Part shown: positions 7,836 through 22,361 of the stretch, piece after piece
Layout: every line of letters starts with the position of its first letter
Position numbering within the stretch: the first letter of the stretch is position 1
Source of the DNA: Sphingomonadales bacterium
GTDB taxonomy: Bacteria > Pseudomonadota > Alphaproteobacteria > Sphingomonadales > Sphingomonadaceae
Length of the DNA stretch: 27,169 nucleotides
Direction: 5' to 3'
Assembly (NCBI GenBank): GCA_013298745.1
Contig: JAAFIT010000002.1
Coordinates: 1 to 27,169, forward strand
Program-made: the position numbers and the translations under genes
The notes under the pieces: model-generated
The model's database searches: none
The model's input: the letters and a program-made list of their open reading frames with translations, nothing else
What the model was told of the DNA's origin: nothing

Positions 7836-9376
7836 CCTTGCGCTTCGAGAAGCGCCCGCGCCGGGGCCAGTGCTTCGGCATGGCTGCGCCAGCGGGCGAC
7901 GGCGTCGCGGTAGATCGGCCGGCGCACCTGGGCGGCACTTGGTGTGGCGACCGCGGCTTTCTGAGTGTGGAAGGAAAGCGCCGCGTCGGTCCAGTCGAGG
8001 CCGCAATGGGCATAGAGCTTGCGGCTTTCGCCCTCCTGGTCGGCGACGAGCTGCTCATAGGACAGCTGGAGGATGCGGCCGGGTAGCCGTTGCTCCCAGA
8101 ACGCCATCAGCCGGTCGAAGCGAGCGTAATAGCGGGCGGTGTCGAGCAGGTCGTAGCTGTAGAAATAATAGGCCGAAGTGCTGGCGAACAGGTTCTTGTA
8201 GTTGCTCCACACGGTGTCGAGCGGGTGGCGGCGCAGGCAGACGATGCTGGCCTTGGGCAGCGCCCGCGCGATATGGCCGATGTTGAGGAAATTCGCCGGC
8301 AGCTTGTCGATGAAGCGCCCGCCGGCCATCAGGCGATGCTGGTTGGCGCGCGCCAGATAGGCGCGGCCGACGGCAGCGGGATCGAGATGGCCCGAGGCGG
8401 CGATCGTCTCGGGATCGATGACGCGCCGCGAGCGGGTGCCGGACAGTTGCTTGATCGCCAGCGGCATCGCCTGCAATTCGCCAGCACTGTGCACATCCGC
8501 GTGCGCCGACAGAATGCGATCGACGAGCGTTGTCCCGGTGCGCGGCATGCCGGTGATGAAGATCGGTGCCGCGGGGATGGTGCTGGCGCCGGCCAAGAAG
8601 TCCGCCCTTCGAAACCCGGCTTCGATGGAATCGAAGATCGCCGCGTCACTGGCGAAGTCATAGCCGATGCGCGCCTTGTGCGCGGCATTGGCGGCATCGA
8701 GGTGCCGGAACGCCGCCGCGCCATCGCCGATATCCTCATATTGCTTGGCGAGGGCATAGCGGATGCGCAGCGCGTCATCGGCTGGCGGTTGCCGCGACAG
8801 CACCGCCTCCATCCGCTCGATGTGATTGGCATCGCGGGTCGCGCGGGTAAGGCCGGCGAGCGCATGATGGGCGCGGCCATGGGCGGGGGCCTGTGCAAGG
8901 ATGATCTCGTGCTGCGCTGCCGCTTCGGCGGTGGCGCCAAGAAAGCCGAGCGCCAGCGCGAGGTTGAGCCGAAGCTCGATATTGCCGGGATCGCGCGCCA
9001 CCGCCGGTTCGAAACAGCGCCGTGCCGCCTGATGATCGCCCAGCCGGGCGTGGATGTTGCCAATGGTATCGAAGGTCAGCGCGTCGGCGGGCCCAAGCGC
9101 TTCGGCTGCCTCTGCCGCAGCCCGCGCCTCGCCATCGCGGCGCAGCAGGATGAGCAGCCGGGCGTGCTGCGCCAGATATTCGGCGGTCGGCGCGACGGCG
9201 ATGGCGGCTTCGATATGCACAAGACCGACGCCGATCCGGCCTTCGCTGGCCTCGGCAATCCCCAACAGAAACCGCCCCTCGGCGGCGTGCGCCGGGCTTG
9301 CCGCCATGGCGTACGCGTGGCGCCGCACGGCCGCCATGTCGCCGCGCGCCAGCGCCTCGCGGGCGGGGCTGCTCAT
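7814..9376 (-). CDS. TPR-repeat sulfotransferase family protein
   Basis: The 520-residue protein joins an N-terminal TPR solenoid (about 1-235, with repeats such as ALTFDTIGNIHARLGDHQAA and NLALALGFLGATAEAA) to a C-terminal sulfotransferase domain. The 5'-phosphosulfate-binding loop is visible at about 272-288 (IFITGMPRTGTTLVDRI). Further family signatures are VCLRRHPLDTVWSNYKNLF, which fits the 3'-phosphate binding region, and LQLSYEQLVAD. Such enzymes transfer sulfate from PAPS; the acceptor here is unknown. ATG 9376 overlaps the stop of the upstream metallo-hydrolase by four bases (ATGA), so the two are co-translated. No signal peptide is seen, so it is probably cytoplasmic. It is convergent with TonB receptor 1, 31 bp apart. 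Confidence 0.9.
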   Translation of the reverse strand: MSSPAREALARGDMAAVRRHAYAMAASPAHAAEGRFLLGIAEASEGRIGVGLVHIEAAIAVAPTAEYLAQHARLLILLRRDGEARAAAEAAEALGPADALTFDTIGNIHARLGDHQAARRCFEPAVARDPGNIELRLNLALALGFLGATAEAAAQHEIILAQAPAHGRAHHALAGLTRATRDANHIERMEAVLSRQPPADDALRIRYALAKQYEDIGDGAAAFRHLDAANAAHKARIGYDFASDAAIFDSIEAGFRRADFLAGASTIPAAPIFITGMPRTGTTLVDRILSAHADVHSAGELQAMPLAIKQLSGTRSRRVIDPETIAASGHLDPAAVGRAYLARANQHRLMAGGRFIDKLPANFLNIGHIARALPKASIVCLRRHPLDTVWSNYKNLFASTSAYYFYSYDLLDTARYYARFDRLMAFWEQRLPGRILQLSYEQLVADQEGESRKLYAHCGLDWTDAALSFHTQKAAVATPSAAQVRRPIYRDAVARWRSHAEALAPARALLEAQGIAVDQA

Positions 9377-10278
9377 GGCTGAGGCCGGGGTGGGCGGGGC
9401 GTGAGGATGAAATCGCCTTCGTTGCCGATCACCGGTGCCTTGGCCATGCGGTGCGCCGCGGCGGCGAGCCGATCGATCGCCGATGGCGGCAGTTCAAGCC
9501 GGTGCTCATCGGGATGGGTGGTGGCCTCCATCGCATAATCCTTGCCGGGCGTGGTTGTCATTTCGATGTGCGCGCCGAGCAGTGCGGCGACGGGATGCGC
9601 CTTCGCAAAAGCCGCGACCCGGTCGGCGCTGGCGACAAAAGTGGCGAATTGGTCGGTCGGCACATAGAGGCGGCCAGCATAGAGCATGTCGCCCGAAAAC
9701 AGCAGCCGGGTGTGTGGGTCATAAACCATGATATGCGCCGGTTCGTGCCCCGGTGTGGGAATGATCGACAGCACCCGCCCGCCGAGATCGAAGCTGGCGA
9801 TGTCGTCGGGCCAGGTCTTCACGCCGAAGAACCGCGCCACATCGGCGGGTTTCAGGCCGACGACCTCGGTAGCGGGCCGCGCAGCGAATTCGCTATCGCC
9901 CCGGATATGGTCGCCATGGCTGTGCGAATGCGCGACGACGAGCGGGATCGACGCGCGTTTGTTGGCCTTCAGCCAGTCGGCGATCACGGCATCGACTGCG
10001 GGGCGGATATCCAGCCCGCCGGCGCCGGAATCGATCAATAAGGCGCGATCCTGTCCGAACAGCAGATAGAGGAACGGCGCTTCGAAATTGGTGCGCACCG
10101 ATTGGCGGATGACGAAGGTGTCGCGGTCGATCGCCTGCACCTGCGTCTGCGGCTCGGCGGGGGTGGTGCCGTTGATCCATGGTACGAAGGGCGGCGGGCC
10201 AGCAGCTGCGGTGGCATTTGCGATCAGCGCTGCAACGACCACGGCGAACAGGCTGGCGACGCGAACTCCACTCGACAC
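9373..10278 (-). CDS. Secreted metallo-beta-lactamase-fold hydrolase
   Basis: The protein has 301 residues, with start GTG 10278 chosen because GGAG lies about 7 bases upstream and a clear signal peptide follows (VRVASLFAVVVAALIANATAAAG). The zinc-binding motif HSHGDH is at 119-124 (HXHXDH). Further probable ligands are the His in PTPGHEPAH, the Asp in LFSGDMLY and a late His in LLGAHIEM. The fold is therefore the MBL superfamily and the product probably acts in the periplasm. The substrate is not identifiable; lactonase, beta-lactamase-like or phosphodiesterase activity are all possible. It is the first gene of a two-gene minus-strand unit with the sulfotransferase and is divergent from the guanidine operon, sharing a 153-bp intergenic region that contains the NikR-like operator. 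Confidence 0.88.
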   Translation of the reverse strand: MSSGVRVASLFAVVVAALIANATAAAGPPPFVPWINGTTPAEPQTQVQAIDRDTFVIRQSVRTNFEAPFLYLLFGQDRALLIDSGAGGLDIRPAVDAVIADWLKANKRASIPLVVAHSHSHGDHIRGDSEFAARPATEVVGLKPADVARFFGVKTWPDDIASFDLGGRVLSIIPTPGHEPAHIMVYDPHTRLLFSGDMLYAGRLYVPTDQFATFVASADRVAAFAKAHPVAALLGAHIEMTTTPGKDYAMEATTHPDEHRLELPPSAIDRLAAAAHRMAKAPVIGNEGDFILTPRPPRPQP

Positions 10279-10349
10279 TGGCACTCTCCTGCGCCCTGTT
10301 GACGATGCGCACGAAAGGGATGGCGCTCCGCTTCCAAGACAATTATGAG

Positions 10350-10377
10350 TTATTACGGATCGGGGCAAACGTAATAT
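10350..10377 (+). promoter_or_regulatory. NikR-type operator 1 and overlapping candidate promoter of the guanidine operon
   Basis: TATTA at 10351-10355 and TAATA at 10372-10376 are exact inverted half-sites separated by 16 bases; the perfect arms extend inward to seven bases (TATTACG and CGTAATA). E. coli NikR binds GTATGA-N16-TCATAC, so the spacing is identical and the half-site differs mainly at one base. The AT-rich right arm contains TAATAT (10372-10377), a good -10 hexamer, with TTATTA (10350-10355) 16 bp upstream as a possible -35. A bound repressor would cover the promoter. The site is 55 bp before the first operon gene and could also affect the divergent hydrolase. Binding is inferred, not shown. 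Confidence 0.65.
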
Positions 10378-10431
10378 TTTTGTGCTCGTCCCGCAGCGTT
10401 CAACACCCGCCATAAATCTTGTGGAGTTTCG

Positions 10432-11517
10432 ATGATGGTGCACTGGGTCCACAAGACGGGCATCGCGGCGCTGGCGGCGGCAGCGCTGGTGTTGACGTCG
10501 TGCAGTTCGGCGCCCGAGCCGGCCAAGCCGCGCACCGAATTCGCCATCGGCTGGTCGATCTACGCCGGCTGGATGCCCTGGCCCTATGCCCAACAGGCCG
10601 GCATCGTGAAGAAATGGGCCGACAAATACGGCCTCACGATCAAGATCGTGCAGGTCAACGACTATGTCGAATCGGTGAACCAGTACACCGCTGGCAAGCT
10701 GGATGGCGTCACCGTCACCAACATGGATGCGCTGACCATCCCGGCCGCCGGCGGCAAGGACACCAGCGCCATCATCATCGGCGATTACAGCAACGGCAAT
10801 GATGGCGTGGTGCTGAAGAACGCCACCTCGCTCGCCAGCATCAAGGGCCGCACCATCAACCTCGTCGAACTGTCGGTGTCGCATTATCTGCTCGCCCGTG
10901 GACTCGAAACCGTCGGGCTGAAGCTCAGCGACGTCAAGACCATCAACACCGCCGATGCCGATATCGTCGGCGCTTTTGCTGCCCCTGAAGTGACCGCCGC
11001 GGTGACGTGGAACCCGCAGCTCAACGAGCTGAAGGCGGCGCCCGGTACGACGCTGGCGTTTGATTCGTCTAAGATTCCGGCCGAAATCCTCGATCTGCTC
11101 GTCGTCGACAGCGCGACGCTCAAGGCCAATCCGGCGCTCGGCAAGGCACTTGTCGGCATCTGGTACGAAACCATTGCGCTGATGCAGCGCCAGGATGCGG
11201 ACGGCGCCGCTGCGCGCGCCGCCATGGCCAAGCTGGCCGGGTCGACACCGGCGTCGTTCGATGCACAGCTGGTGACGACGCATCTTTATGCGACGCCGCA
11301 GGAAGCCCTTGCCGCCGCGACCGCGCCCGAACTCGTCACTACGATGACGCGGGTGCGTGATTTCAGCTTCAGCAAGGGGCTGTTCGGACCGGGGGCGACC
11401 GCGCCCGACGCCATCGGGATCGCGTTTCCTGCCGGCAAGACGCTCGGCAACGCCGCCAATGTCAAACTGCGCTTCGACCCGGCGTTCATGCAACTCGCCG
11501 CCGACGGCAAGCTGTAA
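10432..11517 (+). CDS. ABC transporter substrate-binding lipoprotein (urea carboxylase-region family)
   Basis: This 361-residue protein matches the periplasmic binding proteins found in urea/guanidine carboxylase operons, relatives of the SsuA/TauA/NMT1 class. It begins with a lipoprotein signal: hydrophobic core followed by LTSC, with Cys24 as the lipidated residue and Ser at +2. Mature features include EFAIGWSIYAGWMPWPYAQQAG and a long two-lobed body. ATG 10432 follows GGAG by five bases; ATG 10435 is an alternative. Genes for its permease and ATPase follow immediately (three-base gap, then overlap). Context makes guanidine or a related ureido compound the likely ligand. It is first in the operon, directly downstream of operator 1. 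Confidence 0.92.
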   Translation: MMVHWVHKTGIAALAAAALVLTSCSSAPEPAKPRTEFAIGWSIYAGWMPWPYAQQAGIVKKWADKYGLTIKIVQVNDYVESVNQYTAGKLDGVTVTNMDALTIPAAGGKDTSAIIIGDYSNGNDGVVLKNATSLASIKGRTINLVELSVSHYLLARGLETVGLKLSDVKTINTADADIVGAFAAPEVTAAVTWNPQLNELKAAPGTTLAFDSSKIPAEILDLLVVDSATLKANPALGKALVGIWYETIALMQRQDADGAAARAAMAKLAGSTPASFDAQLVTTHLYATPQEALAAATAPELVTTMTRVRDFSFSKGLFGPGATAPDAIGIAFPAGKTLGNAANVKLRFDPAFMQLAADGKL

Positions 11518-11520
11518 CGG

Positions 11521-12333
11521 GTGCGGATCGTCAACCTCAAGCCGACGCGCCGCGCCCGGGTGCTGCTCGGGGTCGCGCCGCTGTTGTTGCTGGTGATCGC
11601 CTATCTGATTGCGTCGGCGAGCCGCCACGCCATCAACCCGGCCGACAAGATTTTACCGACGCCGCAGGCGATGATCTCTGCGATGCAGTCGTTGGTGCTG
11701 GTGCCCGACACGATGACCGGGGAGCTGCTGTTCTGGGCCGACACGTCGGCGAGCCTGTGGCGGCTGGGGCTGGGGCTGGCGATTTCCACTCTGTCGGCGC
11801 TGTTGCTGGGCCTGGGGCTCGGTCTCATTCCCACCGCGCGGGCAACCTTTGGTCCGCTGGTGACGATCATCGCGGTGATTCCGCCGATTGCCTTGCTGCC
11901 GATCCTGTTCATCGCGCTGGGCTTGGGTGAGGCGGCCAAGGTGGCGCTGATCGTCATCGGCATCCTGCCGGTGATGCTTCGCGACATTGCCGCGCATGTC
12001 GAGGCGTTGCCGGCCGAACAATTGGTCAAGGCGCAGACTTTGGGGGCGAGCAGCTGGCATCTGGCGATCAGGGTCGCGCTGCCACAGGCGATGCCGCGCC
12101 TCATCCATGCCTTGCGCCTCGCGATCGGGCCGGCGTGGGTGTTCCTGATTTCGGCCGAAGCCATCGCCTCCGATGTCGGGCTCGGCTATCGAATCTTCCT
12201 CGTCCGCCGCTATCTGTCGATGGATATCATCCTGCCCTATGTGGCGTGGATCACGCTGCTGGCGATCGCCATGGACTGGGCGTTGCGGCAGGCGAGTGAG
12301 CGCGGCTTTGCCTGGGCGCACCCGACCCGATGA
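11521..12333 (+). CDS. ABC transporter permease (SsuC/TauC-like)
   Basis: This 270-residue inner-membrane protein has about six hydrophobic segments. The cytoplasmic EAA loop that contacts the ATPase is visible at about 160-190 (AEQLVKAQTLGASSWHLAIR followed by VALPQAMP). It starts at GTG 11521, three bases after the substrate-binding protein stop. Its own Shine-Dalgarno is weak, so it depends on coupling. It ends in an ATGA overlap with the ATPase gene. With its neighbours it forms a complete importer, predicted to import guanidine or a similar nitrogen compound. Confidence 0.92.
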   Translation: MRIVNLKPTRRARVLLGVAPLLLLVIAYLIASASRHAINPADKILPTPQAMISAMQSLVLVPDTMTGELLFWADTSASLWRLGLGLAISTLSALLLGLGLGLIPTARATFGPLVTIIAVIPPIALLPILFIALGLGEAAKVALIVIGILPVMLRDIAAHVEALPAEQLVKAQTLGASSWHLAIRVALPQAMPRLIHALRLAIGPAWVFLISAEAIASDVGLGYRIFLVRRYLSMDIILPYVAWITLLAIAMDWALRQASERGFAWAHPTR

Positions 12334-13112
12334 CGGCGCTGCTGTCCCTCCACAATGTCTGGGTCGAATATGGCGACAAGATCGTCCTCGAACGCGTCGA
12401 TCTCGAAATAGCCGAGCGCTCTTTCGTCTCGATCGTCGGACCCTCGGGGGCGGGGAAAAGCACATTGTTACGCCTGTTGCTTGGCCAGGAAGCGCCGACG
12501 CGTGGCCGCATCCTGCTCGATGGCGCGCCATTGAAGCCCGAATGCGGCCCCGATCGCGGGGTGGTGTTTCAACGTTACTCGGTGTTTCCGCATCTCGATG
12601 TCCGCCGCAACGTGCTGTTCGGCCTTGAATGCACGCGCGCACCGCTGACCGGCCGGCTGTTCGGCGCCGCCCGCCGCGCCGCGCTGGCCGAGGTCGATGC
12701 GATGCTGGCAGCGGTCGGGCTTGCCGACAGCGGCGATGCCTATCCGGCGCAACTCTCGGGCGGGATGCAGCAGCGCCTCGCCATCGCGCAGGCGCTGGTG
12801 ATGCGGCCGCGCATCCTGCTGCTCGATGAACCGTTCGGCGCGCTCGACCCCGGCATCCGCCGCGACATGCACGCCCTCATCACCCGGCTGTGGCGCGAAC
12901 AGGGGCTGACCATCATCATGGTCACCCACGATATCGCCGAGGCATTCGGCCTCGGCACCCGCGTTCTTACCATCGACAAGCGCCGCAACGATCCGCAGGC
13001 ACCGCACCGCTATGGTGCCACCGCCGTCTATGATCTGACGCTCGATCGGCGCGTTGCGGCGGAATCACGAAGCGCCGCCAGTATTACGATTGACGAAAAT
13101 GATAATAACTGA
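12330..13112 (+). CDS. ABC transporter ATP-binding protein (SsuB/TauB-like)
   Basis: The 260-residue ATPase energises the importer. Walker A GPSGAGKST is at 37-45, the Q-loop lies near VVFQRYSVFPHLDV, the signature LSGGMQQRLAIAQAL comes before Walker B ILLLDEPFGALD, and the switch His is in MVTHDIAEAFG. ATG 12330 overlaps the permease stop (ATGA). The extreme 3' end is unusual: its last codons (SITIDENDNN) are AT-rich against a GC-rich gene because they carry operator 2 of the NikR-like regulator. The C-terminal tail after about residue 225 is longer than the minimal ATPase domain. Confidence 0.94.
   Translation: MTALLSLHNVWVEYGDKIVLERVDLEIAERSFVSIVGPSGAGKSTLLRLLLGQEAPTRGRILLDGAPLKPECGPDRGVVFQRYSVFPHLDVRRNVLFGLECTRAPLTGRLFGAARRAALAEVDAMLAAVGLADSGDAYPAQLSGGMQQRLAIAQALVMRPRILLLDEPFGALDPGIRRDMHALITRLWREQGLTIIMVTHDIAEAFGLGTRVLTIDKRRNDPQAPHRYGATAVYDLTLDRRVAAESRSAASITIDENDNN
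13081..13108 (+). promoter_or_regulatory. NikR-type operator 2, upstream of the NikR-like gene
   Basis: TATTA at 13082-13086 and TAATA at 13103-13107 are exact inverted half-sites separated by 16 bases, the same geometry as operator 1. With flanking G the left half is GTATTA, five of six matches to the E. coli NikR half-site GTATGA. The left arm shares TATTACG with operator 1. It lies in the last codons of the ATPase gene and ends 17 bp before the regulator ATG, so it is placed for autoregulation of the regulator and downstream enzymes. TTGACG at 13090-13095 could be a -35, but no good -10 is spaced for it. Confidence 0.6.
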
Positions 13113-13124
13113 GAGGGGCAAGGG

Positions 13125-13610
13125 ATGACCGACGACACCCTTGGAACCGGCCTATCGCGGCTGAGCATGAGCCTGCCTTCCAACCTCTATCGCCAGCTCG
13201 ATGTGATGGTGCAGGAGCGCGGGCTGCCGTCGCGATCGCAGTTGATTGCCGAACTGATCCGCAACGCGCTCGCCGATCATGGCGAGGAAACCCACCCCGA
13301 CGCCTTGCTCGCCGGCACGATTACTTTGGTCTATCGCGCCAACATGGGCCGGGTGCGCGAGCAACTTGTGCAAACGCAGCACGAGTTTCTGAAGGAAGTC
13401 ATCTCGGCGCAGCATGTCTTCCTTGAAGACGATCAGTCGCTTGAAGTGTTGCTGGTGCAGGGCCCCGCCACCCGGCTGCGCGCGCTCTGCGATGCCTTGC
13501 GCAAGGTGCGCGGCGTCCAGCAGCTCAAACTGTTCACCACGACCGCGCTGCTGCCGCCGCTCCACGAACAGGTCAGCTTCAAGAGCGCTAAAGCCAGGAA
13601 GACCGCGTGA
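13125..13610 (+). CDS. NikR-family ribbon-helix-helix regulator with an incomplete nickel site
   Basis: The 161-residue protein has the NikR layout: N-terminal ribbon-helix-helix (strand RLSMSLPSNLYRQLDVMV at about 12-29, helices to about 52) and a C-terminal ACT-like ligand-binding domain. DNA-contacting strand residues are R12, S14 and S16, against R3, T5 and T7 in E. coli. The metal region aligns without gaps from TQH to LEV. His86 and His97 match nickel ligands His76 and His87, but Phe99 replaces His89 and Ser105 replaces Cys95. A normal square-planar Ni site therefore cannot form. A C-terminal extension of about 20 residues is also present. ATG 13125 follows a purine-rich site (AGGGGCAAGGG). 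It overlaps the next gene. It probably represses this operon through operators 1 and 2; the ligand could be guanidine or another metal. Confidence 0.88.
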   Translation: MTDDTLGTGLSRLSMSLPSNLYRQLDVMVQERGLPSRSQLIAELIRNALADHGEETHPDALLAGTITLVYRANMGRVREQLVQTQHEFLKEVISAQHVFLEDDQSLEVLLVQGPATRLRALCDALRKVRGVQQLKLFTTTALLPPLHEQVSFKSAKARKTA

Positions 13611-14428
13611 TGGTCACACTCAACGATCCGAATGCGGCGCGCGCCCATGCCCGGGCACAGGAAGGCCTTGTCGCCGATGCGATGCCAATCCTGCCGCCGG
13701 TCGCCGATGATCTGCCGGCGGGCGTCTCGGCGGATGACCTGGTGTGGGAAGAACGCATTGCCGGCGGCGGCTATGCCTCGCGGCGGCTGGCGCGCGGGTC
13801 GCGGACCCGGCTGATCGACGTCGACGGCGATGCCTGTGCCTCGATCCAGATCTTCAACGCCGAAATGCCGACCGAGCGGCTCAACGTTGCCGATACGGTC
13901 AAGATCCAGTGGAACGCCTATATCGGCGCCGGCAAGCTGCTGCTGTCGGACATGGGCCGGGTGCTGATGAGCATCGAGGCCGATGACGCCGGCAGCCATG
14001 ATGCCTTTTGCGGTGCCTCGAACGCCGCCGCCAACGCCCGTGCCTATGGTGAGGGCGGCAACTGGAGCGCGTTTCCCAACGCCCGCGACCGGCTGCTGCT
14101 TGGCGCCGCCAAACATGGCCTTGGCCGCCGCGATGTGCATCCGTGCATCAACCTGTTCAAGGGCGTGAGGATTGCCCAGGGCGGCAGCACCGTGCTCGAT
14201 ATCGGGCCGTTCGCGCCGGGCCGGGCGTTGACGCTGCGTGCCGAAATGGACGTCATTCTGGTTATCGCCAACTGCCCGCACGTCCTCGACACGCGGCCGT
14301 GGACCGTCACGCCGCTGCGCGCCACCGCCTGGCGTGGGCCGATCACCGGCACCGATGACGCCATCCGCAATGCGACGCCGGAGGGCCGCCGCGCCTTCCT
14401 TAACGTCGATGATTATTACCGCCGCTAA
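13610..14428 (+). CDS. Urea carboxylase-associated protein 2 (DUF1989), probable carboxyguanidine deiminase subunit
   Basis: This 272-residue DUF1989 protein belongs to the larger of the two urea carboxylase-associated families. Related pairs (CgdA/CgdB) were shown to deiminate carboxyguanidine to allophanate plus ammonia. Conserved-looking segments are VWEERIAGGGYASRRLARGSRTRLIDVDGDACASIQIFN, split here as WEERIAGGGYASR near residue 45 and DVDGDACASIQIFNA near 75. Others are AFCGASN, DVHPCINLFKGV and the late NCPHVLDTRP. These Cys/His positions suggest a metal-dependent active site. ATG 13610 overlaps the regulator stop (TGATG); GTG 13607 is an alternative start. It is followed after 13 bp by its partner. 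Confidence 0.88.
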   Translation: MVTLNDPNAARAHARAQEGLVADAMPILPPVADDLPAGVSADDLVWEERIAGGGYASRRLARGSRTRLIDVDGDACASIQIFNAEMPTERLNVADTVKIQWNAYIGAGKLLLSDMGRVLMSIEADDAGSHDAFCGASNAAANARAYGEGGNWSAFPNARDRLLLGAAKHGLGRRDVHPCINLFKGVRIAQGGSTVLDIGPFAPGRALTLRAEMDVILVIANCPHVLDTRPWTVTPLRATAWRGPITGTDDAIRNATPEGRRAFLNVDDYYRR

Positions 14429-14441: not shown

Positions 14442-15074
14442 GTGACCGATGTTGCACTTGCGGGCCTTGCTGGGCCGATCGTCCATGATGAAGTGGTTCC
14501 GGCGCGTGCGCCATGGATGCACGCGGTGAAGGCCGGGCAGACGCTGCGCATCGTCGATCTCGAAGGCAATCAGGCGGTCGATTTCCTGATGTATGCGGCC
14601 GCCGATGATGCCGAACGCTATAGCGCGCAGGACACGATTGCGGCGCAGTCCAACATCTTTCTGCGCACCGGCACGAAACTGCTGTCCAACGAAGGCCGGC
14701 CGATGATGACGATTACCGCCACCGCGGTCGATTATCACGACACCATCGGCGGCGCCTGTTCGTGCGAATCGAACACCCTGCGCTATGGCCACCACACCAA
14801 GGCGCAGCATGCGTGCGTCGATAATTTTCTCGATGCCAATGTCCGCGCCGGCCGCGGCAAGCGCGACATGGTGTCGAACATCAACTTCTTCATGAATGTG
14901 CCGGTAGAGGCCGATGGCGCACTGGGGATCGTTGACGGCATTTCGGCGCCGGGGCTGACGGTCGATCTGAAGGCCGATATGGATGTCATCGTCGTCGTTT
15001 CCAATTGCCCGCAGATCAACAACCCCTGCAACGGCTTCAACCCGACGCCCGTCCGCATGATCGTTGCGGCATGA
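14442..15074 (+). CDS. Urea carboxylase-associated protein 1 (DUF1989), probable carboxyguanidine deiminase subunit
   Basis: This 210-residue DUF1989 protein is the partner of the preceding gene; the pair is expected to form the heteromeric carboxyguanidine deiminase. Clear family segments are LRIVDLEGNQAVDFLMYAA, then GGACSCESNTLRYG, HHTKAQHACVDNFL and the terminal NCPQINNPCNGFNPTPVRMI. The clustered Cys and His residues suggest metal ligands. The frame stays open far upstream, but the strong ribosome site at 14427-14434 marks GTG 14442. It ends in an ATGA overlap with the carboxylase, so carboxylase and deiminase production are tightly coupled, fitting the need to process unstable carboxyguanidine. 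Confidence 0.9.
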   Translation: MTDVALAGLAGPIVHDEVVPARAPWMHAVKAGQTLRIVDLEGNQAVDFLMYAAADDAERYSAQDTIAAQSNIFLRTGTKLLSNEGRPMMTITATAVDYHDTIGGACSCESNTLRYGHHTKAQHACVDNFLDANVRAGRGKRDMVSNINFFMNVPVEADGALGIVDGISAPGLTVDLKADMDVIVVVSNCPQINNPCNGFNPTPVRMIVAA

Positions 15075-18000
15075 GCTTCGATACCGTTCTGATCGCCAAT
15101 CGCGGCGCCATCGCCTGCCGCATCATCCGCACGCTGAAGGCGATGGGCCTGCGCTCGGTGGCGGTCTATTCGGATGCCGATGCCGGGTCGCTGCATGTGC
15201 ATGAGGCCGATATGGCGATCCGCATCGGCGCTGGACCGGCGGCAGAAAGCTATCTCGACGTTGCCGCCATATTGCACGCGGCGAAGGAATCGGGCGCTGG
15301 CGCCATCCATCCCGGCTATGGTTTTCTCGCCGAGAATGCCGGCTTTGCCGAGGCGTGCGCGGTTGCCGGAATCACCTTCATCGGGCCAACGACCGACAAT
15401 ATCCGCGCCTTTGGCCTGAAGCACAGCGCCCGCGCGCTGGCCATCGCCCACGGCATCCCGCTGGCGCCGGGGACCGACCTGCTTGTCGATGTCGAGGCCG
15501 CGGTCACGGCAGCGGCGCAGATCGGCTATCCCATCATGCTGAAGGCTACCGCCGGCGGCGGTGGCATCGGCATGCGCGTTTGCCGCGATGAAGCCGCGGT
15601 GCGCGACGGCTTTGCCAGCGTCGCCCGCATGGGGGCGGCGAGCTTCGGTGACGCCGGCGTGTTCCTCGAACGCTATGTCGAGCGTGCCCGGCATATCGAA
15701 GTGCAGATCTTCGGCGATGGCGAAGGCCGCGTCGTGGCGCTCGGCGAGCGCGATTGCTCGCTGCAACGCCGCAACCAGAAGGTGGTGGAGGAAGCACCGG
15801 CGCCGAATCTGCCCGCTGCCGCCCGCGCCGGGCTTATTGCGGCGGCGGTCAAACTGGGCGAGGCTGCCCGCTACCGCTCCGCCGGGACGGTCGAGTTTCT
15901 CTATGACGAAGCCCGCGAGGATTTCTTCTTTCTGGAGGTCAACACGCGGCTGCAGGTCGAACACGGCGTCACCGAACAGGTGATGGGCATCGACCTCGTT
16001 GAATGGATGATCCGCGGCGCCGCGGGCGACTTCTCTTTCCTCGCCAACCCGCCGACCGAGGCGAGGGGCGCGTCGATCCAGGTCCGTGTCTATGCCGAAG
16101 ACCCCGCCCTCGATTATCGCCCGACATCCGGACTGCTTGCCGATGTGCAGTTTCCGCCCGTGCGCGTCGAAACCTGGGTCGCAAGCGGCAGCGAGGTCAG
16201 CAGCTTCTATGATCCGATGCTGGCGAAGATCATCGTCACCGCCGCCGACCGCGACGCCGCCGTGAAGGCCATGCAGGTGGCGCTCGACGACACAGCATTG
16301 GCCGGCATCGAGACGAACCTGCGCTGGCTGCGCGATGTCGTCCGCACCCCGGCGTTCGTCACCGGCGCCGTCTCGACAAAGGCACTGGAACGCGTCGTCT
16401 ATCGCCCGCGCAGCATCCGCGTGCTCTCCGGCGGCACGGCCACCAGCGTTCAGGATTTCCCCGGGCGCACCGGCTATTGGGCGATCGGCGTGCCACCATC
16501 GGGGCCGATGGATGATTTGTCGTTCCGGCTCGGCAACCGACTGCTCGGCAACGCCGAGGATGCCGCCGGGCTGGAAATCACTGCCACTGGGCCGTCGCTG
16601 CTGTTCAACACCGCCACGACGATCTGCCTGACGGGCGCCACTTTCGGCGCTTCTATCGATGGCGCGCCGGTGCCGCGCAACACGCCGGTCGCCGTCGCCG
16701 AAGGCCAGCAGTTGACGCTTGGCCGGGTCCGCGATGGCGGGGTGCGCGGCTATCTTCTGGTTGCTGGCGGGCTCGATATTCCGGCCTATCTCGGCAGCCG
16801 CAGTACCTTTGATCTCGGCGAATTCGGCGGCCATGCGGCCCGGCGGCTGCTCGCCGGCGATACGCTGCATTTGGGCGATGCCCCGGCCGGCGATGCCGCC
16901 GCCATCGCCGCGCCGCCGCCGATCGGCAAGGAATGGCGGCTGCGCGTGCTTTACGGCCCGCATGGCGCACCGGATTTCTTCACCGCCAGCGACATCGAAA
17001 CCTTCACCGCCACCAGCTGGAAGGTGCATTACAACTCCAACCGCACCGGCGTCCGGCTGATCGGGCCAAAGCCGCAATGGGCGCGAAAGGACGGCGGCGA
17101 GGCCGGGCTGCACCCGTCGAACATCCACGACAATCCCTATGCCATCGGCGCCATCGATTTCACCGGCGACATGCCGATCATCCTCGGCCCCGACGGCCCG
17201 TCGCTGGGCGGTTTCGTCTGCCCCTTCACCGTCATCGCCGCCGATCTGTGGAAGGTCGGGCAACTCGCCGCCGGTGACAGTGTGCGGTTTGCTGTCGTCA
17301 CCGCCGCCACCGCCACCGCCGCTGCGTCCGTTCAGGCTGACTGGCTGGCAGGCGCCGCCCCTGCCGCCGAAACCATGGCAGCACCCCAAGGTGTCGCCGG
17401 CCTTTCGCCCATCCTCGCCGATCGCCCCGCTGCGGCTGGTCGGCCGCGCACCGTCTATCGGCAACAGGGTGACCGCAACATCCTTGTCGAGTACGGTCCC
17501 ATCGTTCTCGATCTCGAACTGCGCATCCGCATCCACGCGCTGATGATCGAGCTGGAGCGCATGGCGCTCCCCGGCGTCATCGACATCGTTCCCGGCATCC
17601 GTTCGCTGCAATTGCATTTCGATGGCGTGACGTTGACGCAAACAGAGGCACTGGCAGCGCTGATCGACGCCGAGGAACGCCTCGGCGGCCTCGAAGATTT
17701 CACCATCCCGTCGCGGATCATCCATTTGCCGCTGAGCTGGAAAGACCCGGCGATCTATCAGACCATCGCCAAATATGAGGAGGCGGTGCGCGACGACGCC
17801 CCCTGGTGCCCCGACAACATCGAGTTCATTCGCCGCATCAACGGGCTGGACAGCATCGACGACGTCCACGGCATCGTCTTCAACGCCACCTATCTCGTCA
17901 TGGGCCTTGGCGACGTCTATCTCGGCGCACCCGTCGCCACACCGATCGACCCGCGCCACCGGCTGGTCACCACAAAGTACAACCCTGCGCGCACCTGGAC

Positions 18001-18676
18001 CCCGCCCAATGTCGTGGGCATCGGCGGCGCCTATATGTGCATCTATGGCATGGAAGGGCCGGGCGGCTATCAGCTTTTCGGACGCACCATCCAGGTCTGG
18101 AACACCCACCGGCAAACCGATGCCTTCATCGACGGCAAGCCGTGGCTGCTGCGCTTTTTCGACCAGATCCGCTTCTTCCCAGTCAGCCACGACGAGCTGA
18201 CCGAATGGCGGCGCGACTTTCCGCTGGGGCGACGTGCTATTCGCGTCGAGGAGACCGAGTTTCGCCTCGCCGATTACCGCGCCTTCCTTGCCGACAATGC
18301 TGCTTCGATCGACGCATTCCAGCAGCAGCGGCAGGCGGCGTTCGACGAGGAACGCGCCGATTGGGAGCGCAAGGGCGAGTTCGACCGGGTGGCAGCGCTG
18401 ACCGAAAGCGGCGCCGGTGCCGCCGAGGATACGGCGATTGCGCTCCCCGAAGGTTGCGAATGCGTCGAGGCCCCCTTCGGCGGTGTCATCTGGAAGATGC
18501 TGGTTGCCCCCGGCGAAAAGGTCGGCGCTGATACGCATCTGGCGATAATCGAGGCGATGAAAATGGAGTTTCCTGTCGAAGCGCCCGCCGCGGGCATCAT
18601 CGAAGCGGTCTATGTCAGCGAAAAGCAGGCCATCCAGCCTGGCGCGCCGATGTTCGCCTTCCGGCGCGCGTCATGA
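15071..18676 (+). CDS. Biotin-dependent guanidine/urea carboxylase
   Basis: A 1201-residue single-chain carboxylase. The biotin carboxylase module (about 1-445) starts FDTVLIANRGAIACRI, has the ATP-grasp glycine loop KATAGGGGIGM and the motif EVNTRLQVEHGVTEQ. Carboxyltransferase A/B domain (about 447-775) starts IRVLSGGTATSVQDFPGRTG; the C/D domain follows (about 782-1000). The biotinyl domain carries EAMKM with biotinyl Lys1164. It carboxylates guanidine or urea using ATP and bicarbonate. The stretch PWCPDN (911-916) corresponds to PWLPNN as I recall it in yeast urea amidolyase, and Asp915 may be the reported Asn-to-Asp change marking guanidine carboxylases; the exact equivalence needs an alignment. 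Unlike yeast, the allophanate hydrolase is separate, encoded by the next, overlapping gene. ATGA overlaps occur at both ends. Confidence 0.95.
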   Translation: MSFDTVLIANRGAIACRIIRTLKAMGLRSVAVYSDADAGSLHVHEADMAIRIGAGPAAESYLDVAAILHAAKESGAGAIHPGYGFLAENAGFAEACAVAGITFIGPTTDNIRAFGLKHSARALAIAHGIPLAPGTDLLVDVEAAVTAAAQIGYPIMLKATAGGGGIGMRVCRDEAAVRDGFASVARMGAASFGDAGVFLERYVERARHIEVQIFGDGEGRVVALGERDCSLQRRNQKVVEEAPAPNLPAAARAGLIAAAVKLGEAARYRSAGTVEFLYDEAREDFFFLEVNTRLQVEHGVTEQVMGIDLVEWMIRGAAGDFSFLANPPTEARGASIQVRVYAEDPALDYRPTSGLLADVQFPPVRVETWVASGSEVSSFYDPMLAKIIVTAADRDAAVKAMQVALDDTALAGIETNLRWLRDVVRTPAFVTGAVSTKALERVVYRPRSIRVLSGGTATSVQDFPGRTGYWAIGVPPSGPMDDLSFRLGNRLLGNAEDAAGLEITATGPSLLFNTATTICLTGATFGASIDGAPVPRNTPVAVAEGQQLTLGRVRDGGVRGYLLVAGGLDIPAYLGSRSTFDLGEFGGHAARRLLAGDTLHLGDAPAGDAAAIAAPPPIGKEWRLRVLYGPHGAPDFFTASDIETFTATSWKVHYNSNRTGVRLIGPKPQWARKDGGEAGLHPSNIHDNPYAIGAIDFTGDMPIILGPDGPSLGGFVCPFTVIAADLWKVGQLAAGDSVRFAVVTAATATAAASVQADWLAGAAPAAETMAAPQGVAGLSPILADRPAAAGRPRTVYRQQGDRNILVEYGPIVLDLELRIRIHALMIELERMALPGVIDIVPGIRSLQLHFDGVTLTQTEALAALIDAEERLGGLEDFTIPSRIIHLPLSWKDPAIYQTIAKYEEAVRDDAPWCPDNIEFIRRINGLDSIDDVHGIVFNATYLVMGLGDVYLGAPVATPIDPRHRLVTTKYNPARTWTPPNVVGIGGAYMCIYGMEGPGGYQLFGRTIQVWNTHRQTDAFIDGKPWLLRFFDQIRFFPVSHDELTEWRRDFPLGRRAIRVEETEFRLADYRAFLADNAASIDAFQQQRQAAFDEERADWERKGEFDRVAALTESGAGAAEDTAIALPEGCECVEAPFGGVIWKMLVAPGEKVGADTHLAIIEAMKMEFPVEAPAAGIIEAVYVSEKQAIQPGAPMFAFRRAS

Positions 18677-20448
18677 CGTCGCTCGCCCGCCTTGATGCCA
18701 GCGCCATCGCTGCCGCTGTCGGCAGTGGTCGTACCTCCGCTGTGACCGTGATCAACGACGTGCTGGCGCGGCTGGCGGTTTATGATGCGGTACAGCCGCA
18801 AGCCTGGATATCGCGATTCGATGCCGCGGCGCTTCTCGCCGCCGCCGCCGCCGTCGATGCGCGGGTCGCGACCGGCGAAGTGCTGCCGCTTGCCGGCGTA
18901 CCCTTTGCCGCCAAGGATAACATCGACGTCGTCGGCATCGATACCACGGCTGCGTGCCCCAGCTTTGCCTTCCGCCCGGCGGCGTCGGCGACGGTCGTCC
19001 AGCGCCTGCTCGATGCCGGCGCCATCTGCATCGGCAAGACCAACCTCGATCAGTTCGCCACCGGCCTTAACGGCAGCCGCAGCCCGCATGGCGCCCCGCG
19101 AAACGTCTATAATCTCGCTTATGTCAGCGGCGGCTCAAGCTCTGGCTCGGCGGTCGCTGTCGCCGCCGGGCTGGTTGCCTTTGCGCTGGGCACCGACACC
19201 GCCGGCTCGGGTCGCGTGCCGGCGGCGTTCAACCACCTCATTGGCCTCAAGCCCTCGCGAGGCCGCTGGAGCAACAGCGGCGTCATCCCGGCCTGCAAGA
19301 CGCTCGACTGCGTCACCGTGCTGACCTCGACCGTTGCCGATGCCGCGCTGGTCGATGGGGTCGTCGCCGGCTTCGATGTCGCCGACGCCTATAGCCGCGC
19401 CCTGCCAGACGTGCCGCGCGCCACCCGCCGCATCGGCGTGCCGCTCCCCCACCAGCGCCTGTGGTTCGGCGATCTCGAATCCGAACGCTATTTCAACCAG
19501 GCGCTGGCGACCCTCGCCGCACAAGGCGCAGACCTCGTCCACATCGACATCGCGCCGCTCAACGAAGCCGCGCAACTCCTCTACGGCGGCCCCTGGGTTG
19601 CCGAGCGCACCGCCGCGCTTGCCGCCGTCATCGCCGCCGACCCGGCCGATTTCGACCCCGTCGTCCGCGACGTCGTCACCCCCGGCCTCGCCATCGGCGC
19701 CGTCGACCTGTTCAACGGCATCTACCGCCTCGCCGAACTGCGGCGATACGCCGACGCGATGTGGGAGGGGATCGACCTGCTCTGCCTGCCGACCACCGGC
19801 ACCACCTATCGCCTCGCCGAGATGCGCGCCGCGCCGATCGCGCTCAATTCGGCTCTCGGCGCCTATACCAATTTCGTCAATCTGCTCGACATGGCGGCGA
19901 TCGCCGTGCCGGCGGGAACGCGCGACAATGGCACGGGTTTCGGCATCACCTTCATCGCGCCGGCTGGCACCGATCGCGCCCTGCTCGATGCAGGGCAATC
20001 CTATCTCGACGCGGCAAACCTCGCCGCACCCCCACCCCTGGACCTGGAGGGTCGCATGCAGACCGTGAAGCTCGCCGTTGTCGGGGCGCATCTGAAGGAC
20101 ATGCCGTTGCACTGGCAACTGACGTCTCGCGAGGCGAAGTTCGTCGCCGCGACGCAGACGGCGCCGGCCTACAAACTCTATGCCATGGCCAACAGCACCC
20201 CGCCCAAGCCGGCGCTGGTCCATGTTGATGATGGCGGTTCACCCATCGCCGTCGAAGTCTATGAACTCGATGTCGCCGCCTTTGGCAGCTTCGTCGTGGA
20301 TGTGCCGCCGCCACTCGCCATCGGCACGGTGATGCTGGCCGATGGCACACAGGTGAAGGGCTTTGTCGCCGAGCCGCGCGCGCTGGATGGCGCCGAGGAC
20401 ATCACCGCGCTGGGCGGCTGGCGCGCCTTTGTTGCGCGCGGCGCCTGA
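18673..20448 (+). CDS. atzF: Allophanate hydrolase (amidase signature family)
   Basis: This 591-residue enzyme hydrolyses allophanate to ammonia and CO2, the last step of the pathway. The amidase signature triad is Lys81 (FAAKDNID), cis-Ser155 (VSGGSSSGSA) and nucleophile Ser179 (DTAGSGR). The spacings of 74 and 24 residues equal those of the AtzF triad Lys91/Ser165/Ser189. The C-terminal domain (about 460-591, from MQTVKLAVVGAHLKDMPLHWQL) is present, as in full-length allophanate hydrolases. ATG 18673 overlaps the carboxylase stop (ATGA). It is the last gene of the operon; no obvious terminator follows in the 99-bp gap to the next gene, so some read-through is possible. The symbol is by family; DUR1 or UahA would be equivalent. 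Confidence 0.94.
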   Translation: MTSLARLDASAIAAAVGSGRTSAVTVINDVLARLAVYDAVQPQAWISRFDAAALLAAAAAVDARVATGEVLPLAGVPFAAKDNIDVVGIDTTAACPSFAFRPAASATVVQRLLDAGAICIGKTNLDQFATGLNGSRSPHGAPRNVYNLAYVSGGSSSGSAVAVAAGLVAFALGTDTAGSGRVPAAFNHLIGLKPSRGRWSNSGVIPACKTLDCVTVLTSTVADAALVDGVVAGFDVADAYSRALPDVPRATRRIGVPLPHQRLWFGDLESERYFNQALATLAAQGADLVHIDIAPLNEAAQLLYGGPWVAERTAALAAVIAADPADFDPVVRDVVTPGLAIGAVDLFNGIYRLAELRRYADAMWEGIDLLCLPTTGTTYRLAEMRAAPIALNSALGAYTNFVNLLDMAAIAVPAGTRDNGTGFGITFIAPAGTDRALLDAGQSYLDAANLAAPPPLDLEGRMQTVKLAVVGAHLKDMPLHWQLTSREAKFVAATQTAPAYKLYAMANSTPPKPALVHVDDGGSPIAVEVYELDVAAFGSFVVDVPPPLAIGTVMLADGTQVKGFVAEPRALDGAEDITALGGWRAFVARGA

Positions 20449-20547: not shown

Positions 20548-21423
20548 ATGAAGCAAAAACTAATCGACCTGCTGCCACCGCTCACCGTCGCCGCCGTGCT
20601 GCTATTCTGGGCCAATGTGCCCAAGGCCTGGCTCGACCATTGGTGGCTGCTGATGGTCGTGATCTTCGCCGTCCTCGGCTTTGTCCAGTTGCTCGAATAT
20701 TTTGCCGAGCGGCACGAAGGCTGGCGCCTCAACAGGACCGAGTTCGCCACCGACGTCTTCTACGTTGCGCTCGGCGCCACGCTGATCAACTGGTTGACGA
20801 CGACGCTGGGCGAACCGCCGGTTCTGGCGGCGAAGGAAGCACTCGGCATCGCCACGCCCTGGATCACAGCGCTGCCGTTCCTGGTGCAGGTGGCGATGGC
20901 CATTTTCATCTTCGAATTCGGCCAATATTGGATGCACCGGCTGATGCATAACAACAGCTGGTTCTGGGCGACGCATGCGCCGCACCACCACATCACCCAA
21001 CTGAACGCCATGAAGGGCTATGTCGGCAATCCGATCGAGCTGTTCCTGATCAGCCTTGGCGTCACCGCGCTGTTCGATTGGGACAAGGCGGCGCTGTTTG
21101 CCGCGATCAGCGTCGGCAGCACCGTGGCGATCTATGCCCATGCCAATGTGCGCGCCAATCCGCCGATCTGGTATTCCTTTTTCTTCACGACGATCCGCCA
21201 CCACAGCCTGCATCATACCGCGCTCAGCTATGAAGACACGCGCTGCAACTATGGCAATTCACTGATCCTGATCGATCGAATCTTCGGCACCTACAAGGAA
21301 GGCGAATCGACAATTGTCGGGCAGGGGGAGCGCAAACGCCTGTCGATCAAGGAACAATGGGTGTTCCCGTTCCAACCGCTGATCGATCGGATGAAGGCCA
21401 AACGCGCGCAAGCCTCCAGTTGA
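20548..21423 (+). CDS. Sterol desaturase / fatty acid hydroxylase family membrane di-iron enzyme (copy 2)
   Basis: A 291-residue paralogue of the enzyme at 788-1777, sharing long segments such as FGQYWMHRXMHN, HHXITQLNXXKGXVGNP and HHSLHH. Histidine boxes are HRLMH, HAPHHH and HHSLHH, as expected for a di-iron centre, with several TM helices. ATG 20548 has a clear ribosome site (GAGGGGAG). The catalysed lipid oxidation is not identifiable. It follows the guanidine operon by 99 bp without a recognised terminator or promoter, and is followed 11 bp later by a secreted beta-propeller gene, so those two probably form a unit. Confidence 0.9.
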   Translation: MKQKLIDLLPPLTVAAVLLFWANVPKAWLDHWWLLMVVIFAVLGFVQLLEYFAERHEGWRLNRTEFATDVFYVALGATLINWLTTTLGEPPVLAAKEALGIATPWITALPFLVQVAMAIFIFEFGQYWMHRLMHNNSWFWATHAPHHHITQLNAMKGYVGNPIELFLISLGVTALFDWDKAALFAAISVGSTVAIYAHANVRANPPIWYSFFFTTIRHHSLHHTALSYEDTRCNYGNSLILIDRIFGTYKEGESTIVGQGERKRLSIKEQWVFPFQPLIDRMKAKRAQASS

Positions 21424-21434
21424 TTGGGAACCAG

Positions 21435-22361
21435 ATGAAGACGCATTTGGCCGTCATGGCTGTTGCCGCGGGCTTGGCTGTGAGTGCAATGGCGAGCGCT
21501 GCACCGGTGGAGACGGTCATCGATGTGCCGGGCTTTGCCGATTTCCTCGCCGTCGATGGCGATTCGGTGTGGGCCACCAACAAGGGCCGCGTCGAACGCT
21601 GGTCGAAGGCGGGCAAACTCGCCGAAGTCGCGATGACCCACCCATGCGGCGCCATGATCATCGCGGCAGGATCGCTGTGGGTCGCGGACTGCAAGGAAAA
21701 GACTGTCAACCGCATCGACATCAAGACGGCCAAGCGCACCGCGGTCATCGCCACCGGCCTGGCCAGCCCCGATGGTGAAATGAACGTCGTCTCGGGCGCC
21801 GGCTCGGTGTGGGTCGCCAGCGACAAAACCGGCCTCGTTGCTCGGATCGATCCCGCCACTAACAAGGTCATTGCGTCGATAAAGGTCGAGCCCGGCAGCT
21901 GCTATCTGGCGTTCGGCGAAGGCGCGCTCTGGGTGGTCAGCGCCGGCAGCCAGACGGTGCAGAAGGTCGATCCCGCCACCAACACCGCCGTCACGACGAC
22001 GAAGCTTGGTAAGGCGCCAGGCTTCCTCGCTGCCGGCGAAGGCGGTGTCTGGGTGCAAGAACAGGGCGATGGCACCGTCGCACGCGTCGATCCCGCCAGC
22101 GGCGCTGTCACCGGCCGCGTCAAGGTCGATGATACGTTGAAATGGGGTGACATCGATACCGGCGACGGCAAAATCTGGTTGCGCACCACTGCCAACCAAA
22201 CGTTTGTCGTGATCGATCCCAAATCCCTCGCCATTCTGGCACGTGTCGGCAATGCGTCCGGCAGCGGCGCGTTGCGCTACACCCCGTCAGGTGTCTGGAC
22301 TACGGCACATGACCGACACACACTGTCCTGGTGGAGCGACCCTGCTAGGATCGTGAATTGA
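21435..22361 (+). CDS. Secreted YncE/Vgb-like beta-propeller protein
   Basis: The start is ATG 21435, after GGGAA and right before a signal peptide (MKTHLAVMAVAAGLAVSAMASAA). An upstream in-frame ATG at 21357 lies inside the desaturase gene. The 308-residue product has repeated blades of about 40 residues, each with a strand ending in (G)XXWVA/WVV followed by VXRIDPATNKV or a variant. The pattern is that of YncE and virginiamycin B lyase-like propellers. Virginiamycin lyase activity should not be assumed, since most family members are binding or scaffold proteins of unknown role. Three Cys residues (HPCG, VADCK, GSCYL) could form a disulfide in the periplasm. Eleven bases separate it from the desaturase, so the two are probably co-expressed. 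Confidence 0.85.
   Translation: MKTHLAVMAVAAGLAVSAMASAAPVETVIDVPGFADFLAVDGDSVWATNKGRVERWSKAGKLAEVAMTHPCGAMIIAAGSLWVADCKEKTVNRIDIKTAKRTAVIATGLASPDGEMNVVSGAGSVWVASDKTGLVARIDPATNKVIASIKVEPGSCYLAFGEGALWVVSAGSQTVQKVDPATNTAVTTTKLGKAPGFLAAGEGGVWVQEQGDGTVARVDPASGAVTGRVKVDDTLKWGDIDTGDGKIWLRTTANQTFVVIDPKSLAILARVGNASGSGALRYTPSGVWTTAHDRHTLSWWSDPARIVN

Follow-up and report, generated by a model that had tools for sequence, protein, structure and literature searches.

A palindromic putative operator and a NikR-like regulator gene at a guanidine carboxylase operon of Sphingomonadales

Genes and palindromes at the locus

The window (the whole stretch of DNA analysed, 27,169 nucleotides from contig JAAFIT010000002.1 of a Sphingomonadales bacterium) carries an operon for uptake and carboxylation with a palindrome, here called operator 1, in front of it and a second copy, operator 2, inside it. 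Operator 1 sits between the operon and a divergent gene for a metallo-beta-lactamase-fold hydrolase. The features are as follows:

9373–10341, minus strand: metallo-beta-lactamase-fold hydrolase, divergent; matched four NCBIfam families, each below its cut-off
10351–10376, no strand: operator 1, TATTACG-N12-CGTAATA, with the conserved core TATTAC-N14-GTAATA
10432–11517, plus strand: ABC transporter substrate-binding protein (TIGR03427, over cut-off)
11521–12333, plus strand: ABC permease (PF00528)
12330–13112, plus strand: ABC ATPase (PF00005)
13082–13107, no strand: operator 2, TATTACG...GATAATA, in the last ATPase codons, 17 bp before the NikR-like gene
13125–13610, plus strand: NikR-like regulator, 161 aa, with RHH_1 and NikR_C domains; fourth gene of the operon
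13607–14428, plus strand: UAAP1 (TIGR03425; DUF1989)
14442–15074, plus strand: UAAP2 (TIGR03424; DUF1989), tested as a longer ORF from 14238
15071–18676, plus strand: urea/guanidine carboxylase (TIGR02712, over cut-off)
18673–20448, plus strand: allophanate hydrolase (TIGR02713, over cut-off)
20548–21423, plus strand: FA_hydroxylase-family protein, a possible regulon member with no operator before it in the window

UAAP1 and UAAP2, which we take to be the subunits of carboxyguanidine deaminase, are encoded in one operon with the carboxylase and the allophanate hydrolase. D696 of the carboxylase aligns with N1330 of the K. lactis enzyme, presumably the deciding position, and Asp was found at the equivalent position in all 104 carboxylases whose loci spanned residues 690–705 (104 of the 109 loci searched), a count that is partly non-independent since loci L032–L057 and L113–L192 overlap in some genomes. 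According to excerpts of PMC12186494, guanidine carboxylases are recognised by Asp, and urea carboxylases by Asn. D696 thus indicates a guanidine-type carboxylase, and on these features the operon is a guanidine carboxylase operon.

Elsewhere such operons are often under guanidine riboswitches (PMC12186494, in extract). The riboswitch-run operons of Raoultella terrigena, Klebsiella michiganensis and Vreelandella boliviensis, as described in parts of PMC12186494 and PMC12508155, resemble that of the window in their Asp-type carboxylase and have in common with it an importer, carboxyguanidine deaminase, guanidine carboxylase and allophanate hydrolase; unlike them, the window has, where the riboswitch would be, a putative operator in the DNA and the gene for a regulatory protein. 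We considered control of the operon by a riboswitch or another known RNA element, but at gathering cut-offs the window and 27 related loci gave no match, guanidine riboswitches included. In the window, known RNA elements with E up to 1 amounted to one chance-level snoRNA match, under its cut-off. Guanidine-I was over cut-off in none of the 296 genomes of the order under stricter filters, with three sub-threshold matches in genomes without the regulator. The scan at locus level did pick up a guanidine-II riboswitch in locus L194 (genome G575), where, as in the window, a NikR-like gene occurs within 16 kb along with UAAP1/UAAP2 genes. Unlike in the window, a riboswitch stands just before UAAP1, and the NikR-like gene of L194 is transcribed divergently from ABC, creatininase-family and glutamine synthetase genes.

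Sequence and conservation of the putative operator

Operator 1 is a perfect inverted repeat, and the bases flanking it (10350, T, and 10377, T) are unpaired. The original prediction placed it 55 bp before the first gene and gave it perfect arms of seven bases; the distance to the start codon at 10432 is indeed 55 bp, and the arm length is true of this copy, the perfect arms of operator 2 being five bases long. The spacing was likened to that of the E. coli NikR operator, which is GTATGA-N16-TCATAC in extracts of PMC7055735, and this too was borne out, TATTA-N16-TAATA being in register with the TATGA-N16-TCATA core. The delta-proteobacterial NikR signal, given as GTGTTAC-[N13/14]-GTAACAC in part of PMC545781, contains the variant site of genome G054 described below, and the H. 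pylori NikR site, TRTTA-N15-TAWTA in excerpts of PMC5385501, is similar to that of the window. Sharing its register with the E. coli and delta-proteobacterial sites, the operator belongs to the known NikR kind.

Exact matches to TATTA-N16-TAATA occur twice in the window, at 10351 and 13082, and in none of 100 shuffles. These are also the only two places in the draft genome (2.96 Mb in 525 contigs, 79% complete), where the reversed control pattern occurs once. When the 90-bp stretch 10342–10431 was shuffled, the pattern appeared in 19 of 200,000 shuffles and any 7-bp inverted repeat with a spacer of 8–20 in 765 of 20,000; the window holds eight exact 7-bp inverted repeats with a 12-base spacer. 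Since inverted repeats as such are common, weight is placed on the sequence and its conservation, not on the dyad alone.

The regulator gene is present in 26 of the 296 genomes of the order. The carboxylase is over its family cut-off in 27 genomes, and the regulator is found in 26 of these and in none of the 269 others. The sole exception, G239 (L193), lacks both the NikR-like gene and the motif, and its operon, otherwise the same, is preceded by a LysR-type gene; a guanidine operon can thus run without the NikR-like regulator. The LysR-type gene of L193 adjoins a TonB-dependent receptor gene; this appears to be a regulator swap.

In 24 other genomes of the family the eight genes are arranged as in the window, L035 having an additional regulator gene ahead of them, and each of these neighbourhoods has TATTA-N16-TAATA before the substrate-binding-protein gene. 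The core TATTAC-N14-GTAATA was found in all 24 regulator-carrying genomes tested (the 26 of the order less the window's own and G054), at 43 places in about 89 Mb, as against one place for the reversed control. Forty-one of the 43 places lie no more than 4.5 kb from the regulator gene, and the remaining two, in G179, are at the cluster's far end. In 38 genomes lacking the regulator, the motif occurred at one place (1/38) and the reversed control at five, so single occurrences carry little meaning.

A search for the motif upstream of orthologous operons, as the original prediction had proposed, found TATTA-N16-TAATA before the first gene, that of the substrate-binding protein, in 79 of 79 loci, with its first base 68–172 bp before the estimated start; this supports the repeat as a candidate operator for the NikR-like protein encoded at the locus. 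The sample was the best 80 of 269 relatives, sphingomonads and erythrobacters by title, from which L128 was dropped as it had no substrate-binding-protein match. A motif-blind search of the 200 bp upstream recovered TATTAC-N14-GTAATA as the commonest 6-bp inverted repeat (77/79 loci). The next commonest, in 7 loci, was the same type of site read one base inward, and shuffled upstream stretches had no recurring repeat among those shown. The bases flanking the operator are poorly conserved. A chance palindrome is ruled out by the genome-wide rarity of the motif, its co-occurrence with the regulator and its motif-blind recovery in orthologous loci.

Less of the original prediction held for the promoter. 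The right arm was said to coincide with a good -10 hexamer; TAATAT matches TATAAT at 4 of 6 bases, and a consensus scan of 10240–10500 found no promoter. Over 80 loci (the 79 plus the window), the -35 match at the right distance for a -10 on the right arm was 2–3 of 6 bases, no better than in shuffled sequence, and the best consensus pair had its -10 on the right arm in 14 loci, including the window (7/12 bases). The further claim that the operator overlaps the operon promoter is opposed by a promoter-like pair, TRGACA-N15-19-NAYGYT, downstream of operator 1 in 50 of the 80 loci (shuffles, mean 0.025 loci), a pattern picked after the alignment had been viewed. Its spacer is 17 in 47 loci, and it begins 8 bp after the operator in 34; the pair is absent from 30 loci, the window and 29 others. 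If it is the promoter, the operator would lie at about -69 to -44, where activation or looping fits better than blocking. The position of operator 1 upstream of the -35 of this pair, in which these loci differ from NikR, thus favours activation, or loop repression relieved by a ligand, over simple blocking of the promoter.

A second operator was found in 78 of the 79 loci. It is of the operator 2 type, directly before the regulator gene, in 59 of the 79, and 20 loci have a copy upstream of operator 1 (operator 0), at 248–335 bp in 19 of them and at 133 bp in one; one locus carries both and L174 neither. In the first set of loci, 21 of 24 have a second operator, and L040, L048 and L055 have operator 1 only, L055 belonging to the window's genus. 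Loci mostly have either operator 2 or operator 0, which suggests that the second copy serves a purpose, either autoregulation or looping.

Operator 2 contains an inner TTGAC (window 13090–13094), each base of which is found in 98% of 55 distinct sites. It was tried as a -35 element, and by eye there was no -10 at 16–18 bp further; the stretch at that distance resembles the ribosome-binding site of the regulator gene. We considered that this TTGAC perhaps provides an extra contact. Operator 0 also holds a TTGAC, reading away from the operon, in L033, L039, L041, L042, L045, L046, L051 and L052, and in most of these eight loci it is followed by a T-rich-to-GTA stretch like TCCATANCGT. Operator 0 as the promoter of a divergent protein gene was rejected, as no ORF seemed conserved in the eight loci looked at; the stretch is possibly the promoter of a small RNA.

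The NikR-like regulator

Like the NikRs of E. coli, H. pylori, P. horikoshii and delta-proteobacteria, the regulator consists of a ribbon-helix-helix and a NikR_C domain, both over their Pfam cut-offs (PF08753, 77.4 bits, cut-off 22; PF01402, 31.2 bits, cut-off 20.5), and it is related in sequence to the solved NikRs (best E 9.3e-24). Its scores are below the cut-offs of all five curated NikR models that it matched (98.6/105, 91.1/111, 68.8/83, 67.2/119 and 60.7/175.45).

The nickel site of NikR, as described in extracts of PMC7055735, combines His87, His89 and Cys95 with His76 of a neighbouring subunit. At the positions of E. coli H76, H87, H89 and C95 the window regulator has H86, H97, F99 and S105, the ligands, unlike in NikR, being largely replaced. 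Among the 121 segments spanning residues 16–110 (from 107 of 109 loci, a set that takes in G239 and G575, and partly non-independent for the reason given above), the H87 equivalent is kept in 121, that of H76 in 5, the window's own protein among them, that of H89 in 1 (Phe in 112, Val in 8) and that of C95 in none (Ser in 120, Thr in 1); the sole His at H89 and the sole Thr at C95 fit the distant G575 protein. The nickel motif is replaced by Gln-His-Val-Phe-Leu-Glu-x-Asp-Gln-Ser, in which Q96, H97, F99, E101, D103, Q104 and S105 are nearly invariant. In the alignment, a Glu of the P. horikoshii NikR, which we take to be aligned with the second metal site, is Gln in the window regulator.

The regulator sequences thus lack the high-affinity nickel site of NikR, and since this is the defining ligand test of the family, the protein should not be filed as a nickel-responsive NikR. 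By sequence it is no nickel sensor. As most nickel ligands are gone and the targets are guanidine-degradation genes, 'NikR-like' must not be taken to mean nickel-responsive. Since the H87 position is kept in all 121 segments and the H76 position has His in 5, residual metal binding is possible. A pocket rebuilt and conserved in this way, offering carboxylates and an aromatic ring, would be suited to guanidinium.

It is very improbable that the protein still responds to nickel as an ordinary NikR does, through a degenerate site, and so places nitrogen genes under nickel control. The NikR_C score, the kept H87 position, the NikR geometry of the operator and the naming of many relatives as nickel-responsive by their sources (among the best 120 of 2086 homologues) would all accord with it, but C95 is changed in 121 of 121 segments, H89 in 120 and H76 in 116, the Glu at the presumed second metal site has become Gln, and all five matched NikR models fall short of their cut-offs. 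Moreover, none of the operon genes encodes a nickel transporter or a known nickel enzyme; NikR targets are genes for nickel uptake and nickel enzymes, whereas here they would be genes for guanidine uptake and carboxylation.

DNA binding, in contrast to the ligand site, appears NikR-like. We take residue 14 of the strand to be among the residues that contact DNA, and in the E. coli NikR the residue at this position is presumably Thr, going with GTATGA. Outside the family the half-site varies in step with this residue: Ser14 was found with TATTAC in the window, G947, G984 and G575 (one mismatch), Thr at this position with TATGAC in G993, and Gly14 with TGTTAC at both copies in G054, whose two loci have no TATTA-N16-TAATA. 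In the H. pylori NikR, Ser at the residue 14 position goes with TRTTA (excerpts of PMC5385501). No other sequence evidence speaks as strongly for the NikR-like protein itself reading the site as this joint change of strand residue and half-site, which is drawn from few independent changes. G947 and G054 have the operator before the regulator gene only; G947 has one operator in a rearranged operon with the transporter genes on the other strand, and no transporter genes were matched in the two loci of G054.

Taken with its conservation, these data make the palindrome very probably the operator of the NikR-like protein. That it is bound by another transcription factor, the NikR-like protein having some other role, is hardly credible: motif and regulator gene co-occur, the operator stands at the regulator's own gene in the 59 of 79 loci noted above, and the half-site varies with the specificity strand.

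Effector and direction of control

The best explanation overall, and one that we regard as fairly probable, combines a NikR-like operator with a rebuilt site sensing guanidine or the first pathway intermediate; binding, effector and direction of control we infer. As in NikR, a tetramer would use its two ribbon-helix-helix domains to bind the pair of TATTAC half-sites, and the second operator, at the regulator's gene or upstream of operator 1, would make the circuit autoregulatory and perhaps cooperative. The rebuilt C-terminal nickel site would sense guanidine or the first intermediate, and sensing would switch on guanidine uptake and carboxylation, the job of guanidine riboswitches in other bacteria. 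Control could be by activation, or by loop-mediated repression that the ligand relieves. The loss of most nickel-binding residues, together with an operator at a guanidine operon, makes the protein a candidate guanidine sensor.

For the effector itself, we lean only slightly towards guanidine or the first intermediate. With operator and regulator as described, the effector could instead be a later nitrogen metabolite (urea, allophanate or ammonium status), or the protein could be a ligand-free autoregulator. These alternatives together we hold to be unlikely, although co-occurrence ties the protein to the operon and not to one molecule, and the distant NikR-like proteins near creatininase-family and glutamine synthetase genes suggest that other nitrogen ligands are possible in the lineage. 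The near-invariance of Q96, H97, F99, E101, D103 and S105 is unlike a decayed site, however, and among the sequences examined this residue set is confined to the proteins of guanidine operons, the three distant ones lacking it.

Those three proteins, from L194, L201 and L202 (G575, G984 and G993), are more distant NikR-likes at 40–42% identity; they keep His-Val-His and have Thr for the nickel Cys. In all three loci the NikR-like gene has creatininase-family and type III glutamine synthetase genes beside it, and in L194 and L201 an ABC transporter as well. They perhaps represent another non-nickel branch with a different nitrogen ligand.

Guanidine sensing described so far in bacteria is by riboswitches only, and a 2025 review states, in the part excerpted, that no guanidine-binding transcription factor is known (PMC12186494). 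Among the open-access papers searched, to which this negative is confined, we found none joining NikR and guanidine carboxylase. Of two papers with both NikR and urea carboxylase, one, as far as its excerpts go, treats nickel use and yeast urea carboxylase apart, and the other matched through an author name. Among the matches listed, the only paper with both NikR and guanidine concerns, in the portion available, CdbA, a c-di-GMP-binding ribbon-helix-helix protein (PMC7156744).

Whether a NikR with its nickel site rebuilt into a guanidinium pocket is the first protein transcription factor to sense guanidine and replaces the riboswitch in sphingomonads, other nitrogen compounds being sensed by further branches of the lineage (the creatininase and glutamine synthetase operons), is to our mind evenly balanced. 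If so, a metal sensor would have come to sense a small organic cation, relatives labelled nickel-responsive may be misnamed, and a protein-based guanidine sensor would be at hand for biotechnology. A direct test of this needs one protein, one ligand and a 26-bp DNA, and NikR specificity becomes easier to read from the way in which strand residue and half-site change together.

A second NikR-like gene lies upstream of the operon in 13 of the 79 loci (L132, L142 and L143 among them), in 7 with an operator of its own. Beyond the allophanate hydrolase gene, the window has the FA_hydroxylase-family gene and a beta-propeller gene (20548–22361). In L037 (14694–15741) and L049 (13035–14249) an operator lies directly before the FA_hydroxylase gene, which makes this gene a possible regulon member; L036 and L047 have an operator site in the corresponding place. 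One guess is that the FA_hydroxylase-family protein is an oxygenase for substituted guanidines.
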